A DNA stretch of 64,000 nucleotides from Methanogenium organophilum (GTDB taxonomy: Archaea; Halobacteriota; Methanomicrobia; Methanomicrobiales; Methanomicrobiaceae): positions 1,302,001-1,366,000 of the forward strand of contig NZ_CP113361.1 of NCBI RefSeq assembly GCF_026684035.1, in the 5' to 3' direction. The translations under genes and the position numbers were made by a program. The notes beneath the pieces were generated by a model that was given only the letters and a program-made list of their open reading frames with translations, was not told the DNA's origin and made no database searches. Position 1 is the first letter of the stretch; every line of letters starts with the position of its first letter. Positions 56,603 to 64,000 of the stretch are shown in pieces.

Positions 56603-58123
56603 ATGAAGAAGACAATCGGAAAAATCGTCGGGGTGCTGGTATTCTTTATCCTCCTCTTATGGCCCATGGACCCCGCCTTTTTCCCGGTGCAGGCGACCGC
56701 AGCGGCTACTGCCCTTATGGTGATATGGTGGATCACCGAGGCAATTCCCATTCAGGCGACTGCTCTCCTGCCGATAGTGCTCTTTCCCACCCTTGGTGTT
56801 TTGACCGCTAGTGAGGCAACTGCCCCCTATGCTGATAAGGTCATCTTCCTGTTTATGGGGGGTTTTATCATTGCAATGTCCATGCAGCGTTGGGGTCTGC
56901 ATGAACGGATCGCGCTTGCGATTCTCAATAAAGCGGGTTCGAGTTCACGCATGCTGATATTCGGGTTTATGGTCGCAACGGCATTTCTCTCGATGTGGAT
57001 ATCCAATACCGCAACGGCGATGATGATGGTTCCTATTGCGATAGCGATCATCGCCACCATCTTGCCGAGAAATGATCTGAAACTTGAGGAAATGGACAAG
57101 ACACAGCGTGACTTTGCAGAATGTATTGTCATCTCCATTGCCTATGCAGCGAGTATCGGAGGTCTTGCAACGATCATTGGTACACCGCCAAACGGCATAT
57201 TCCTCGCGCAAATGGAAACAATATTCCCCACTGCTCCAACGATAGATTTCTTTACCTGGATGAAGTTCGGGCTGCCGCTTGTGATCATTTTCCTTCCGAT
57301 TTCGTGGTTATGGCTCACCTATGGGCCGTATCGGCATATGCCGAAGAAGATCTCCCATGGGCATAATATTATCCAGCAGCGAATTTCAGAACTGGGCCCG
57401 ATGAGCCGGGGTGAGCGCTGGACACTGCTTGTCTTTGTGCTGACGGCGGTAGCCTGGATTATGCGTTCTGAAAAGGACATTGGCGGGCTCATCATCCCTG
57501 GCATCAATACCTATCTGCCATGGGTGCATGACTCAACCATTGCCATTGCAGGTGCTATTCTGCTCTTCCTGTTGCCGGTTGACCGGAAACAGGGCATATA
57601 TACGATGAACTGGGAATGGGCCAAGAAGATTCCGTGGGGGATTCTCATCCTCTTTGGCGGCGGAATTGCCCTCTCAAAGGCGTTCATCGCATCCGGCCTT
57701 GCGCAGGTAATTATTGAAACGTTTACAGTATTCCATGGCCTCCCTATCGTGGTGGCAGTCGTTGCTGTGGCAATCATTGTCTCTTTCCTGACCGAAGTGA
57801 CGTCCAATACGGCGATGGCATCGGTAATGATTCCGATCATGGCGGTCACCTCTGTGTCTATGGGCATTCACCCGTGGATCCTGATGCTCACCGCAACCTT
57901 TGCGGCATCGATGGCGTTCATGCTGCCGGTAGCAACGCCACCGAATGCGGTTGCCTACGGTTCCGGATACATTACCATGCATGATATGATGCGTTCCGGA
58001 TGGGTGCTCAACTTCATTGGTATTGGTATTCTGACGGCAATGATGTTCACGATCATCACCTGGGCCCTTGGTATCGGCCCGGAGATGCCGCTCTGGGCAT
58101 TAGAGCCCGTGCTTGGTCCCTGA
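56603..58123 (+). CDS. SLC13/DASS family anion transporter
   Basis: 506 aa. Eleven or twelve TM segments; WWITEAIPIQATALLPIVLFP, SMWISNTATAMMMVPIAIAI, and SFLTEVTSNTAMASVMIPIM are the SLC13 signature (SNTATA and SNTAMA repeats). Transports sodium with dicarboxylate, sulfate or similar anions. TAATTTATATCATAC at about 56570-56584 is a TATA box, implying a very short leader. Confidence 0.95.
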   Translation: MKKTIGKIVGVLVFFILLLWPMDPAFFPVQATAAATALMVIWWITEAIPIQATALLPIVLFPTLGVLTASEATAPYADKVIFLFMGGFIIAMSMQRWGLHERIALAILNKAGSSSRMLIFGFMVATAFLSMWISNTATAMMMVPIAIAIIATILPRNDLKLEEMDKTQRDFAECIVISIAYAASIGGLATIIGTPPNGIFLAQMETIFPTAPTIDFFTWMKFGLPLVIIFLPISWLWLTYGPYRHMPKKISHGHNIIQQRISELGPMSRGERWTLLVFVLTAVAWIMRSEKDIGGLIIPGINTYLPWVHDSTIAIAGAILLFLLPVDRKQGIYTMNWEWAKKIPWGILILFGGGIALSKAFIASGLAQVIIETFTVFHGLPIVVAVVAVAIIVSFLTEVTSNTAMASVMIPIMAVTSVSMGIHPWILMLTATFAASMAFMLPVATPPNAVAYGSGYITMHDMMRSGWVLNFIGIGILTAMMFTIITWALGIGPEMPLWALEPVLGP

Positions 58124-58489: not shown

Positions 58490-58885
58490 TCACTGCATCC
58501 GGATGGCAATGTCATTTGGAGATGCAACGACAATCTCTTTTTTTCCACGGTATGTCTGAACCGTACCGATAACACTGACTGTCTCTCCGATTGCCTTCTC
58601 TGGTTCGTCCAGTGCGCCATCCGGGATGAAGACGGAGGTGTTGTTTACGGTGAGCATCAGGTGGCCGCCTGTTTTGGTATTGGCTGCTGCAGTTACGGAA
58701 CCGGTCAGAACCGAAAGGGTGCCATCCTCCAGTGTATCAGAGAACGGGGCCGCAAATGTCTCTTTTCCTGTTGAATCGATCAGATATGAGCACACGGCAA
58801 GCAGAATAAGGACACTGATGATGAGGAAGATGGCGGTCCGTTCCTGCAGATGTTGCATAATATCAGAAGGGTTGGCCTCAATCAT
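58490..58885 (-). CDS. Membrane-anchored OB-fold protein
   Basis: 131 aa. TM helix near 17-37 (TAIFLIISVLILLAVCSYLI), then an extracellular OB-fold: SVLTGSVTAAANTKTGGHLMLTVNNTSVFIP and VSVIGTVQTYRGKKEIVVASPNDIAI, the classic nucleic-acid-binding OB layout. Convergent with the small gene at 58227. ATG 58858 is an alternative start. Confidence 0.8.
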   Translation of the reverse strand: MIEANPSDIMQHLQERTAIFLIISVLILLAVCSYLIDSTGKETFAAPFSDTLEDGTLSVLTGSVTAAANTKTGGHLMLTVNNTSVFIPDGALDEPEKAIGETVSVIGTVQTYRGKKEIVVASPNDIAIRMQ

Positions 58886-59017
58886 CGTAAATGTGGCGGC
58901 AGCGGGATTGGCGGGAGGAATTCTTGCCGGTTGTAAACTTTGTTTAATTAATCTGTGGTAAAATAAACATAACTAATATGAGCTGAAGCTACAAACGGTT
59001 TAAAAATCAGGTGGGTA

Positions 59018-62000
59018 ATGATTTTCCGTAGCTTCTGTTCAGGTTTGTTGTGTATTTTCCTTCTTGGCTGTATTGTCATGCCTGTCATAGCTACCGATAC
59101 GCTCACGGTGGCACGGTATGCCTCCGTGGAGAGTGAACCGGAATTTGAGGAGACTTACACCATTGCGTGGATGGAAGAGAATCTGCCGGTTATGGGGGAT
59201 GGGACTACTCATTACTACCTGCAGGGCCCGGTCTTTGATGAGTCTGAGGACTCGTGGAATCCGGACGAGGACATCAACTGTTATCCGAATAAGGACATGG
59301 GTGCGGTCAGGGGGACCGATGTGGCGGACCTCTGTGAAATGGCAGGGGGTGCACACCAGGGTGATGTGATCCTTATCCGTGCCGACGATGGGTTCCGGAA
59401 GTCGTTCCCCTATGAGAATATCTATACTCCGCCAGCCCGGCAGGGCAGAATGGTGATTGCATGGGAAAAAGACGGACAGAAGGCGGGTGCCGGGTATTAT
59501 GATGGGATGCGGCTTCAGTTCTTTGCGGACACCTCAGTGAACCCATGGGGCGAGCACATCTTTGGCAACAGTGATATGCGTTTTGCCCTTCCTGAGGAAT
59601 ACTGGCACTTCTTCCAGCCGGGGCTGCCTTCGAGTACCGGGCTCTCTGTGCAGTCTGTCTCCCGCATAGAAATATATGAATCAACCGGCGGTCAACCCCC
59701 GGTGGTTCCCTCTGGCGATAATGACGGGGGTGCCGATCTCTGGACACCCGCAACCGGGACGCTGACGGTTCTCTCCGTTCCTGCGGATGCCGCAGTGGTT
59801 ATCGACGGTGCGACAAGTGATTATCTGACCAATGTATCCATTCCGGATATGCCTGAGGGTTCCTACGGTGTCACCGTGGAGCGTGAGGGGTATGAAACAC
59901 CTGATGAGGAATGGCTGATGGTCTCAGACGGTTCCAATGCCACGGTCTCCTTTTCCCTGACGGGTATCACCGCACCCTGCACGATAGTATCACATCCTGC
60001 GAATGCCCGCATCGCTGTGGATGGGGTGGATACCGGCACCACAGCGGATACAGATTCCCTTTCCCTGATTGTCGGGAATCATACCATCACCCTTACGATG
60101 GACGGGTATGTACCGCTTGAGATTCCGGTCCGGATCACGGACGGGGGAACGAACCGTGTGGAGGGTGTGCTTGTTCCCGTTTGTGGTGAAGATGACATTC
60201 CCCTGCTCTCCACAGGGCCGCACGGCAGCCTGAAGGGGTCTCTCTCAGTGAAGACAACAGGTGGATACCCGGGCTTTATTGCGGGCGGAGAATCGGTTCC
60301 TATGCATATGCCTGAAGGAGAAGGAAATGAGATCACGTCTTACCTGCTCTTTTCTCATGGATATGACACGGCATCGGGTCTTCCGGCTGAACCACAGCCG
60401 TCTCTCTCATCCGGCGGTGAACGCCTGATCCCCCGGCTTCTTGCAAACACCATCACCCCTGCGGGTACTGTAGACCAGACCTGTGCCCTCTTCCCGTTCC
60501 CGTCTCCTAATTTCACGATCAGCAGTTCGGGAGGGGACGAGGATGTCTTCAGTCTTTCTGCTGCGATCTCCCTTCTTGCACGTGATGGGCCGGACACATT
60601 CGCATATGCGGTGTATGAGGGATGTGTCCCTGCGACAGGAGAGATCTGCACGATCCCAGCGGATGCCCTGCCAAATGGAGGCACCCGTACACTTACTGTT
60701 CTTTGTACAGAGGCAGGGGTGGGGACAGATGCACCGGGAATCTCGGTGAACGGGATGACACTTGATGCGGTTTATGCAACACTGGAGCAGGGTCTGGTGC
60801 AGATCACCGCACCCCTCCCCCCCGGCGGTGGAGCATATACTGTCATGGTAGAGAATGCATCTTCCGGATGGATAGTGCGGGTTGTGATTTTAACCGCAGC
60901 AGAACCGTCCTCCGTTCCGGATGTGGCGGATCCGGAAAAGAAGTCTGATATTTCCAGTGATACGGATGACGGAATTATGTCAGGTATCTATCGTTTTTTT
61001 GCTTCTCTTTTCTCTCTGAACGCAGTAAATCCCGCCGCAGCATCTGACACACCATCCCCCGCCGGGGCTGGCAGTCAGCAAAATGTGACACCTGTTTCCC
61101 CCGTATCTGTCCCGGAGACGACTCTGGATTCTGTGCCGCCTTCACTGGTGTTTGCACCGGCAGAGGGGGTTCGTTCTCCTGCCCTGACCGGTGGCCTGCT
61201 GGTGGATTCCGTGCCCTCGGGAGCATGGATCAGTCTCGACGGAAAATCGACCGGAAAAAAGACTCCTGCCCTCTTTGCCGGCCTCAAGGAGGGCACACAT
61301 CGCATCGGGGTCTCATCAGCACTCACGGGCGATACACGCTCAGAGAAGGCCTGGGTCTATCCGGGTGCCCTTATCCCCGTCTTCTTTGATTTTTCCTCCG
61401 TGCTCCCGGAAGCGACCGTACAGGTTGAAAGTGGAACTGGCGAACCGGTGGTCTTTACGGTGAACGGAATACTACCGGAACAGACGACACCTGCTCAGGT
61501 GACCATCACGGATACGGAATCATTCGTTGCGGTCACTTCAGACGAGGGCTGGCAGACATATCCTGTCACCTACCAGCGTGTTGACGGGACGCTAACTCTG
61601 GTGCCGCCGGTCTGCGGGACATGCACGGTCGCTGTCGCATCCAGCCCGGCAGATGCCGAGATTATTATTGACGGCAAACGTACCGGAGACAGAACTCCTG
61701 CTGAAATCTCCTGTCTCTCCCCTGGTCCTCATCGTATTGTATGTTCCCTGCCGGGATATTATCCGGATGCACAGGTTATTTCAGTGAGTGATAGCTCTGG
61801 AAAACCGGATGCAGAGGTATCGTTCACGCTTACACCGTATTCTAATGGTGCCCTCTCGGTAACCTCGGTGCCTGCCGGTGCACAGATCTATCTCCATGAT
61901 CGCTACACCGGTTTGGTTACTCCTGCAACGATCTCCGGCCTTCCGATCGGTACCTATGAGATTGGGCTTTCCACTGACGATGAGACCGTTATCCGGGAGA

Positions 62001-62056
62001 TGACGGTCCTGCCGGACACGGTGGTAGCGTATGAGTTTCGATTTGGAGAAGAATAG
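59018..62056 (+). CDS. Large secreted protein: molybdopterin-oxidoreductase-like domain, PEGA repeats, DUF3344-like region
   Basis: 1012 aa. Signal peptide (CIFLLGCIVMPVIA). Residues about 28-225 form a domain with WMEENLPVMGDGTTHYYLQG, GTDVADLCEMAGGAHQGDV, and SFPYENIYTPPARQG, paralogous to the next gene and to the oxidoreductase-molybdopterin-type fold without a catalytic Cys. Then PEGA domains at about 245-320 and 322-390, a DUF3344-like region (about 395-640), a Ser/Pro-rich linker, and three or four more PEGA-like repeats to the end (VPSGAWISLDGKSTGKKTP, SSPADAEIIIDGKRTGDRTP, VPAGAQIYLHDRYTG). AGGTGG precedes the start. First of the surface cluster that ends in a WtpA-like gene. Confidence 0.85.
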   Translation: MIFRSFCSGLLCIFLLGCIVMPVIATDTLTVARYASVESEPEFEETYTIAWMEENLPVMGDGTTHYYLQGPVFDESEDSWNPDEDINCYPNKDMGAVRGTDVADLCEMAGGAHQGDVILIRADDGFRKSFPYENIYTPPARQGRMVIAWEKDGQKAGAGYYDGMRLQFFADTSVNPWGEHIFGNSDMRFALPEEYWHFFQPGLPSSTGLSVQSVSRIEIYESTGGQPPVVPSGDNDGGADLWTPATGTLTVLSVPADAAVVIDGATSDYLTNVSIPDMPEGSYGVTVEREGYETPDEEWLMVSDGSNATVSFSLTGITAPCTIVSHPANARIAVDGVDTGTTADTDSLSLIVGNHTITLTMDGYVPLEIPVRITDGGTNRVEGVLVPVCGEDDIPLLSTGPHGSLKGSLSVKTTGGYPGFIAGGESVPMHMPEGEGNEITSYLLFSHGYDTASGLPAEPQPSLSSGGERLIPRLLANTITPAGTVDQTCALFPFPSPNFTISSSGGDEDVFSLSAAISLLARDGPDTFAYAVYEGCVPATGEICTIPADALPNGGTRTLTVLCTEAGVGTDAPGISVNGMTLDAVYATLEQGLVQITAPLPPGGGAYTVMVENASSGWIVRVVILTAAEPSSVPDVADPEKKSDISSDTDDGIMSGIYRFFASLFSLNAVNPAAASDTPSPAGAGSQQNVTPVSPVSVPETTLDSVPPSLVFAPAEGVRSPALTGGLLVDSVPSGAWISLDGKSTGKKTPALFAGLKEGTHRIGVSSALTGDTRSEKAWVYPGALIPVFFDFSSVLPEATVQVESGTGEPVVFTVNGILPEQTTPAQVTITDTESFVAVTSDEGWQTYPVTYQRVDGTLTLVPPVCGTCTVAVASSPADAEIIIDGKRTGDRTPAEISCLSPGPHRIVCSLPGYYPDAQVISVSDSSGKPDAEVSFTLTPYSNGALSVTSVPAGAQIYLHDRYTGLVTPATISGLPIGTYEIGLSTDDETVIREMTVLPDTVVAYEFRFGEE

Positions 62057-62075
62057 CTAAAGGATAAAATTGAGC

Positions 62076-62969
62076 ATGAACCTGATTTCAATGACTACGG
62101 AAATAAAGAGCCTTTACGGGCGTAACAACCTCTGCCGCATTGGTGTGGCAGTGCTGATAGCAGCACTTCTTCTCTGTGCAGGGGCAGCCGCAGGACCGAC
62201 GACAAATATCACGGTAACAAAGATCTCTGCTACCGGCGACATCATCGCAGAAAAGACGGTGGATTATCTCTGGATGCAGGACAACCTGCCGGTACAGGGA
62301 GATGGTGTGACGCATTACTACCATCAGGGCCCGGTCTTCTCTGATGATAAGGACGTGGCCTGGGATCGCAATGAGACAGCAAACTACAAAGATCATGGCG
62401 CAGTGATGGGGACTGATATCGCTGATCTCTGTGGCCTTGTGGGCGGCGCCGCACCGGGAGATGAAATCATGGTGAGGTCTTCAGATGGCTACCACGTTGA
62501 GTTCCCGTATGAGAACGTCTTCACGCCTGACCCGCGCCAGGGACCGATGGTTGTCACCTGGTACAACGGTGAGGACGCGGTGTCTGGAGAACGGAGCGGA
62601 GTCGGGTACACGCCGGATGACTACTACAGCGGAATGCGCCTTATCTTTTTTGCGGACAACTCCACCAATGCAGACGGGAACCATATCTATGGTAACTGGG
62701 ACATGCACGAGACGATGCCCGGTAGCGCCCAGCACTTCTTTGACCTGATGCCATCAACCAATGGTTTCACGGCGAAGTGGGTGGATGAGGTCCGCATCTA
62801 TGAAGGCGGTTTTTCAGGGGATACCTCGGCACCGGTTAAATCCCTGCAGTCTGATGATGCAGAAAGCACAACCGGTGCCGTGCCGGACACCACCCCCGCT
62901 CCCGCTCCGGTTGCACTCATCGCTGCAGGTCTCGCCCTCGCCCTCGTGCCGCTGCGCCGGAGGCTCTGA
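62076..62969 (+). CDS. Secreted protein with molybdopterin-oxidoreductase-like domain and C-terminal sorting signal
   Basis: 297 aa from ATG 62076 (TTG 62070 is open). Signal peptide (IGVAVLIAALLLCAGAAAG), then the same domain as in the preceding gene: WMQDNLPVQGDGVTHYYHQG, GTDIADLCGLVGGAAPGDE, EFPYENVFTPDPRQGP, GMRLIFFADNSTN. The C-terminus TTPAPAPVALIAAGLALAL with final RRRL looks like an archaeosortase-type signal. Overlaps the next gene by one base (TGATG). Confidence 0.85.
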   Translation: MNLISMTTEIKSLYGRNNLCRIGVAVLIAALLLCAGAAAGPTTNITVTKISATGDIIAEKTVDYLWMQDNLPVQGDGVTHYYHQGPVFSDDKDVAWDRNETANYKDHGAVMGTDIADLCGLVGGAAPGDEIMVRSSDGYHVEFPYENVFTPDPRQGPMVVTWYNGEDAVSGERSGVGYTPDDYYSGMRLIFFADNSTNADGNHIYGNWDMHETMPGSAQHFFDLMPSTNGFTAKWVDEVRIYEGGFSGDTSAPVKSLQSDDAESTTGAVPDTTPAPAPVALIAAGLALALVPLRRRL

Positions 62970-63547
62970 TGAAGCGGCTGATTCCCATTTTATGTCTCTG
63001 TCTCTGCATTCTGACGGGGGCCTGTGTCTGCGGCTGCACCGGGAACGCTGACCCGGCACCGACCACGCCGGTCATCCCGGAGCCCCTGCCGGGCAATCTT
63101 ACCATAATAAACGGGGACACTGAGGTTGTCCTGGACTGGGATGCCATAACCGCAATGCCTGCATTTGTCGGGTACGGGTATGCGGTCTCTACCGTGGGAA
63201 TCAAATACGGCCCCTATGACGTGAAAGGTGTGCGCCTCACCGACCTGATCGCGCTCGCCGGAGATTTTGGAGAGGAAAATCAGACCTGGGTCTCCGCACC
63301 GGACGGTTATCTCTGGGTCTTTGACTATGATCAGGTGCAGGGAGAGGGGTTCATCACCTTCGATGCTGACCTCAAAGAAGTGCCCGCCCCATCTCTCACT
63401 GTTATCATCATGTATGAGCAGGATGGCATGCCACTCACCTCCGGGGAAGGCGGTCCCTTCCGGATGGTGGTGGCAACCGACACTCCTGATGTGATCACCG
63501 AAGGCAGTTCCTGGGTGAAGTGGGTTGATACCATTGAAGTCAGGTAG
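62969..63547 (+). CDS. Lipoprotein with molybdopterin-oxidoreductase-like domain
   Basis: 192 aa. Lipoprotein-type signal (LCLCILTGACVCGC). The domain VVLDWDAITAMPAFVGYG, YDVKGVRLTDLIALAG, TWVSAPDGYLWVFDYDQV, EGGPFRMVVATD is the beta-rich fold of molybdopterin-binding oxidoreductases (sulfite-oxidase type) lacking a cofactor Cys. It follows two secreted proteins with related domains and is overlapped by a WtpA-like gene, so a role in handling molybdate or tungstate is inferred. Confidence 0.85.
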   Translation: MKRLIPILCLCLCILTGACVCGCTGNADPAPTTPVIPEPLPGNLTIINGDTEVVLDWDAITAMPAFVGYGYAVSTVGIKYGPYDVKGVRLTDLIALAGDFGEENQTWVSAPDGYLWVFDYDQVQGEGFITFDADLKEVPAPSLTVIIMYEQDGMPLTSGEGGPFRMVVATDTPDVITEGSSWVKWVDTIEVR

Positions 63548-64000
63548 CTCAAAAATATCTCCCCTCCCTTTTTTGCTTCTTGGTATTGGAATGGTTACCC
63601 TGGTCCTCGCTGCCGGGTGCAGTGACACCGGGGAGAAGACTGTTGTCAATGTGCTCCCGGCAGGTAGTCTCCTGGGGCCAATGGAGACGATGGAAGCCGA
63701 ATATGAAGCACTGCACCCGGATATCGACATCCGGAGCGAAGGGCACGGCAGTATCCAGTGCATCCGGCAGGTAACTGACCTCCATCGGGACTTTGATGTC
63801 ATTATCGTTGCCGATGAATCCCTCATCCCGGATATGATGTATATTCCCCGTGAGGACGGAAACGGCACCTATGCCACGTCATACATTCCTGTGGCCCGCA
63901 ATGAGATGGTCATCGCCTATACCAGCCAGAGCCGGTACGCAGATGAGTGTACAGAGGAGAACTGGGTGGAGATTCTCCGCCGTCCGGACGTCAGGACTGG
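63534..64000 (+). CDS. WtpA-like tungstate/molybdate-binding lipoprotein (cut by window edge)
   Basis: The frame from TTG 63534 gives a complete lipoprotein signal (KISPLPFLLLGIGMVTLVLAAGCS) and then VVNVLPAGSLLGPMETMEAEYEALHPDIDI, RSEGHGSIQCIRQVTDL, FDVIIVADESLIPDMM, and ARNEMVIAYTSQSRY, the substrate-binding core of WtpA-type periplasmic proteins that feed ABC uptake of tungstate or molybdate. An internal ATG at 63591 would destroy the signal peptide. It overlaps the preceding lipoprotein gene by 14 bases. Confidence 0.8.
   Translation, partial: MKSGSSKISPLPFLLLGIGMVTLVLAAGCSDTGEKTVVNVLPAGSLLGPMETMEAEYEALHPDIDIRSEGHGSIQCIRQVTDLHRDFDVIIVADESLIPDMMYIPREDGNGTYATSYIPVARNEMVIAYTSQSRYADECTEENWVEILRRPDVRT

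Follow-up and report, generated by a model that had tools for sequence, protein, structure and literature searches.

We analysed a 64,000-nucleotide stretch of the genome of the archaeon Methanogenium organophilum (hereafter the window; C1:1302001-1366000 of a single-contig 2.65 Mb genome), which closes with three genes for exported proteins, here termed P1, P2 and P3, that lead into a gene for a diverged WtpA, the binding protein of an ABC transporter for oxyanions (here WtpAx). P1, P2 and P3 have related domains, and their cluster is linked to WtpA both within the order Methanomicrobiales and outside it. We read this module as a cell-surface stage of molybdenum or tungsten (Mo/W) uptake, a reading to which we assign a probability of roughly 0.55, its ligand and relay being what we infer. 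Hydrogenotrophic methanogens need tungsten or molybdenum for their formylmethanofuran and formate dehydrogenases, and we know of no description of how traces of these metals are collected outside the methanogen membrane. A conserved surface module paired with a distinct WtpA clade offers a directly testable answer. If true, it would assign a role to the domain of P1 and P2, a family for which we found no Pfam model, and would extend cysteine-less sulfite oxidase (SUOX) folds, known so far as bacterial pterin sensors, to the acquisition of metals or cofactors.

Linkage of the exported proteins to WtpA

P1, P2 and P3 are Sec-exported proteins. A first-pass annotation, made from the sequence letters, had described three consecutive secreted proteins of 1012, 297 and 192 aa, and both the open reading frames (ORFs) and the signal peptides bear this out: signal peptides, judged by eye, are present in all three and in WtpAx, with lipobox-like motifs in P3 and WtpAx. 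The 14-base overlap that it had reported between P3 and a WtpA-like lipoprotein gene holds if translation starts at TTG 63534, TTG 63525 being the other candidate, and the encoded protein passes TIGR03730 (322 bits against a cut-off of 242.75).

Close relatives of P3 belong to Methanogenium. Of 150 Methanomicrobiales genomes, 55 have the gene, each as a single copy. A WtpA gene lies directly after it on the same strand in 54 of these 55; in the sole exception (G099) the cluster-type WtpA is on another contig. Of 56 named loci, 15 have WtpB and WtpC immediately downstream, and some others have them nearby or divergent. Loci derived from metagenome-assembled genomes (MAGs) may be incomplete, and such neighbour counts vary with locus length. 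The gene order P2-P3-WtpAx(-WtpB-WtpC) recurs in two families labelled only 'same phylum', and therefore of another class, where WtpB follows in five of nine loci. Conserved linkage to wtp genes in related genomes, on which the first-pass proposal depended, is thus what we find.

Of 393 genomes of the phylum, 48 have P2-type domains; P3 is present in 43 of these and in no others (the two genome lists were compared by eye), which leaves 345 with neither. Presence is patchy inside several genera, and the parts of the module therefore appear to be gained or lost together. A collection-wide scan for P3 used strict peptide patterns that missed the other class, and so says little beyond the phylum. 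We set aside one P3 relative in a 'Clostridiaceae' MAG (L119), whose contig shows the Methanomicrobiales arrangement and is probably mis-binned. At another locus (L108:9112-11904), P2 and P3 are tandemly duplicated before WtpAx-WtpB-WtpC.

The PEGA repeats expected in P1 amount to five domains (Pfam, 3.6e-48), whereas the DUF3344-like core with which the protein had also been credited is undetectable in the window's P1 at E <= 10 (Pfam); DUF3344 is present in P1-like proteins of related genera (4e-26, 6e-9). Archaeal PEGA/DUF3344 surface proteins carry the same repeats as P1 and its relatives, but in the latter the repeats share a protein with a SUOX-like domain and are linked to the gene of a transporter. 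One might suppose that the exported proteins have a structural or adhesive role at the surface and that their genes are simply inherited along with an oxyanion transporter, the more so as P1-type proteins reach more than 2000 aa and bear PEGA and DUF3344 repeats, as surface proteins typically do. We consider this decidedly unlikely, however, as the tight P2-P3-WtpAx order in two classes, the strict co-occurrence and the strong conservation seen in P2 (among 31 orthologs, 44 of about 209 columns are invariant) exceed what neighbourhood alone would lead one to expect.

Folds of the exported domains

The similarity first noticed between P1 and P2 corresponds to 50% identity between the N-terminal domain of P1 and P2. 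This shared domain has no Pfam or NCBIfam match, but its profile aligns with that of P3 (hhalign probability 96.6, E 5.5e-10), and P3 itself matches PF00174 over the Pfam cut-off at 7.3e-8. AlphaFold2 models are confident (predicted local distance difference test, pLDDT, of 96.3 for the P2 domain and 94.1 for the P3 domain) and, rather than unrelated folds, show the sulfite-oxidase/PruR fold in both. The top PDB match of the P2 model is PruR 7rkb (Foldseek, E 2.8e-4, probability 1.00), after which come fragments of nitrate reductase and sulfite dehydrogenase; that of the P3 model is PruR 7kom (E 6.4e-7, TM 0.64/0.72), with further matches to SoxCD 2xts and to sulfite oxidases including the C185S mutant 3hbg. 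The assignment to a sulfite-oxidase-like class without the cofactor cysteine is likewise upheld. The mature P3 domain is free of cysteine; at the position expected for the Mo ligand, judged by sequence, a Ser-Thr is invariant across the Methanomicrobiales and Ser/Thr-Thr stands in the second archaeal class; no cysteine is invariant among the P2 orthologs.

PruR is an exported protein of SUOX-type fold that binds pterins and lacks the metal-binding cysteine (PMC13259868). P2 and P3 resemble this protein of the Proteobacteria in being exported with one SUOX-fold domain that lacks the Mo-ligand cysteine, but identity to it is 15-19% for P3 and 8-10% for P2, and both are archaeal and either anchored or lipoproteins. 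PruR has a tryptophan at the cysteine position, where P3, going by its sequence, would have the Ser-Thr; and while PruR shares an operon with a DcpA/DTB regulator, the partner of P3 is the ABC-transporter binding protein WtpA, not DcpA. P2 and P3 might still detect extracellular pterins or oxyanions and thereby gate either the transporter or a partner in signalling, as PruR is itself a signalling protein. Such a sensing role is very unlikely, given that the gene tables examined hold no GGDEF, histidine kinase or other transmembrane signalling partner beside P3.

P3 shares with the sulfite oxidase/SoxCD/YedY family (PF00174) the fold and the C-terminal motif YE.DG.PL..dGGP.R ... VKWV..IEV, and the A4 profile matches the plant sulfite oxidase 1ogp at 3e-7. 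Unlike members of that family, it has neither the cysteine ligand, nor the second (dimerisation) domain, nor a twin-arginine (Tat) signal. Tat-like motifs were found in none of 77 P3 and in eight of 272 P1/P2-type ORFs, counts that are approximate because locus genes were called as longest ORFs. Enzymes already loaded with cofactor are normally exported folded, through Tat, and because the signals of P1, P2 and P3 look to be of Sec type, a cytosol-loaded enzyme is unlikely. It is accordingly highly improbable that the three are molybdopterin or tungstopterin enzymes that work outside the cell and rely on the transporter for their metal: the SUOX fold would suit them, as would the conserved cysteine in a third SUOX-like domain of some giant proteins of the same loci, yet P1, P2 and P3 lack the ligand cysteine as well as the expected export route.

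These giant surface proteins of related loci combine P2-type domains, DUF4430 and the third SUOX-like domain, which occurs in 131 copies in 54 ORFs and keeps its cysteine in 75% and its histidine in 83%. One such surface protein, of 2339 aa and encoded in the window's genome (C1:1579919-1586938; L016 5919-12938), has a pair of P2-type domains together with DUF4430 repeats, and its SUOX-like PF00174 domains do have a cysteine close to where the ligand is expected.

WtpAx and its probable permease and cargo

WtpAx aligns end to end with 3k6u and 2onk (E 7e-69 and 2e-62), and the WtpAs of the clusters form one clade (support 100). They are marked by the signature EGHGSIQ / NPMLDAAGYR / RDGSVYL (44/44 cluster WtpAs, 0/38 others), within which HGSIQ is invariant in the 44, drawn from both classes, and in none of the 38 non-cluster WtpAs. 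The 44 also share an NPxxD(A/S)xGYR stretch, a Ser at 218 and a non-acidic residue two further on, in a numbering taken from P. furiosus 3cg1 (chain D132 = Asp160, E190 = Glu218). Asp160, the Asp of NPMLDAAGYR, whose carboxylate provides selectivity for tungstate (PMC10221389), is kept in all of them, while Glu218, a carboxylate of the octahedral coordination, is replaced by Ser throughout. We rejected the loss of Glu218 as cluster-specific, Ser being found there also in most non-cluster WtpAs of the order; what the cluster WtpAs specifically lack is the HAGSL His, the acidic residue 220 and, in most of them, the ADY Tyr. In genomes of family f5, WtpA-like domains lie within open frames of ~640-660 aa, apparently fused to another domain.

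Compared with known WtpABC systems (WtpA of Pyrococcus furiosus; structures from A. fulgidus, M. acetivorans and M. jannaschii), the likeness consists in the TIGR03730 match, Asp160 and WtpBC of the same family adjoining part of the loci. WtpAx differs in forming a separate clade with an altered pocket and the invariant HGSIQ, and in being preceded by SUOX-fold surface proteins, a feature known from no other Wtp system. The components (WtpABC, the PruR/SUOX fold and PEGA proteins) are of known kinds, and their combination is new as far as we found: a search of open papers, with subscription papers outside it, returned no description of the module combination, the WtpAx clade or the P2 domain family.

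In 14 of the 55 genomes with P3, no WtpA other than that of the cluster was found. In five of these (G004, G010, G022, G100 and G144), all from one genus (g12) and hence few independent cases, wtpBC lies at another site, and the gene table shows no WtpA belonging to it. This wtpBC is of the canonical family (58-63% identity to the WtpB of the window's genome) and has a MOT1-type gene close by in all five; the G004 protein matches Pfam MFS_MOT1 at 4.8e-53, and those of the other four are 86-94% identical to its N-terminal part over 53-97 residues. A wtpBC with no detected WtpA of its own, in the company of MOT1, argues, without proving it, that WtpAx works with WtpBC and that its cargo is Mo/W. 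Other substrate-binding proteins near wtpBC in G022 (TupA-like, PBP_like_2) and, judged from the reading frames, in G144 and G100 may serve transporters of their own.

These genomes also bear on whether the PruR-like proteins bind a reduced pterin, of methanopterin type or other, that WtpAx-BC then imports in place of a metal oxyanion. We think this unlikely. While the best structural match, PruR, is a pterin binder and several WtpAx pocket residues are unlike those of canonical WtpA, WtpAx still passes TIGR03730 and keeps Asp160; the WtpBC for which it is the only WtpA found in the five genomes is canonical and lies beside MOT1-type genes; and the cleft of WtpA is shaped for a small oxyanion.

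A secreted purple-acid-phosphatase-like metallophosphoesterase (PF00149, PF16656), its metal-site motifs conserved, is encoded in the cluster at 28 of 45 loci, in both classes, and could remove phosphate or a nucleotide from a cofactor. The module might serve extracellular cofactor scavenging, in which the phosphoesterase would trim molybdopterin or tungstopterin (nucleotides) released by other cells, the SUOX-fold surface proteins, among them some giant partners with the conserved cysteine, would hold the pterin-bound metal, and WtpAx would take the freed oxyanion to WtpBC; we regard this as possible but unlikely.

In the explanation that we favour, a cell-surface stage of Mo/W uptake, P1, the anchored P2 and the lipoprotein P3 would use their cysteine-less PruR-like fold to bind a Mo/W-bearing ligand outside the membrane. 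The ligand would most likely be pterin-bound (molybdopterin, tungstopterin or a breakdown product), possibly a free oxyanion; a pterin or pterin-metal ligand is favoured because the fold is PruR-like, an oxyanion because of the company of WtpA and MOT1. The ligand or its metal oxyanion would be handed to the dedicated WtpAx, which would load a WtpBC whose genes adjoin its own in some genomes but lie apart from it in others; for the genome of the window, this partner would presumably come from a second wtpABC operon. A joint version would have pterin-bound metal captured extracellularly and its oxyanion released, perhaps with the aid of the phosphoesterase, for uptake by WtpAx-WtpBC. Of the surface stage of oxyanion uptake first proposed, then, a surface stage linked to the Wtp system is well supported, while the binding or relay of molybdate, tungstate or a pterin goes further than these results.

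Several observations weigh against this explanation. WtpA occurs without P3 in 31 of the 150 genomes of the order. To the right of the window's WtpAx, where the first-pass annotation had suggested a check for wtpB and wtpC, the flanking genes include neither, and the genome has a second, complete wtpABC 54 kb further right. The metallophosphoesterase is absent from the window's cluster and from Methanogenium. Lacking Glu218, the HAGSL His and the 220 carboxylate, WtpAx may have a ligand other than tungstate bound in the known way. Finally, the pocket of PruR is reportedly too small for the molybdenum cofactor (PMC13259868).

Feature coordinates and other neighbouring genes

Table 1. Features of the cluster (window positions) and genes at related loci (locus positions).
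Feature	Position	Strand	Basis or remark
P1, 1012-aa secreted protein: N-terminal Cys-less SUOX/PruR-like domain and 5 PEGA domains	59018..62056	+	ORF; PEGA 3.6e-48; N-domain 50% identical to P2 domain
P1 N-terminal SUOX-like domain, aa 25-225	59090..59692	+	Homology to P2 domain; profile match to P3
P2, 297-aa secreted protein with C-terminal hydrophobic anchor	62076..62969	+	ORF; ATG start (TTG 62070 also possible)
P2 modelled domain, SUOX/PruR-like fold, no conserved cysteine at Mo-ligand position	62196..62819	+	AlphaFold2, Foldseek
P3, 192-aa lipoprotein, PF00174-like domain, mature domain cysteine-free	62969..63547	+	PF00174 7.3e-8; WtpA linkage 54/55
P3 modelled domain, 153 aa	63086..63544	+	AlphaFold2, Foldseek
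WtpAx, diverged WtpA lipoprotein	63534..64000, running past the window to 64574	+	TIGR03730; signature; own clade
Metallophosphoesterase genes, examples	L096:6096-7292, L140:6939-8162, L095:6912-8165		Cluster loci
Small regulator-like protein genes	L217:8011-8364, L169:10765-11127, L095:13650-14000		

Other genes near the clusters at the 45 loci encode TupA-like proteins (5), MOT1 (3) and a small regulator-like protein (6). The last belongs to a family without a Pfam match; one genome has it close to MOT1/wtpBC, others close to the P3-WtpAx cluster.

Upstream of P1 the window holds a gene for a DASS-type sodium/anion symporter (56603-58123), which we dropped as a part of the module since it adjoins P1 only in Methanogenium. 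GTTTAATTAAY, found at 58942 before P1 and also before a canonical wtpA in a sister genus, was dropped as a shared upstream motif: it has three matches genome-wide against three for the reversed pattern, and its count in the window is that of chance. Divergent from P1, at 58490-58885 on the minus strand, lies a gene for a 131-aa secreted protein whose match to an OB fold is weak and below threshold.

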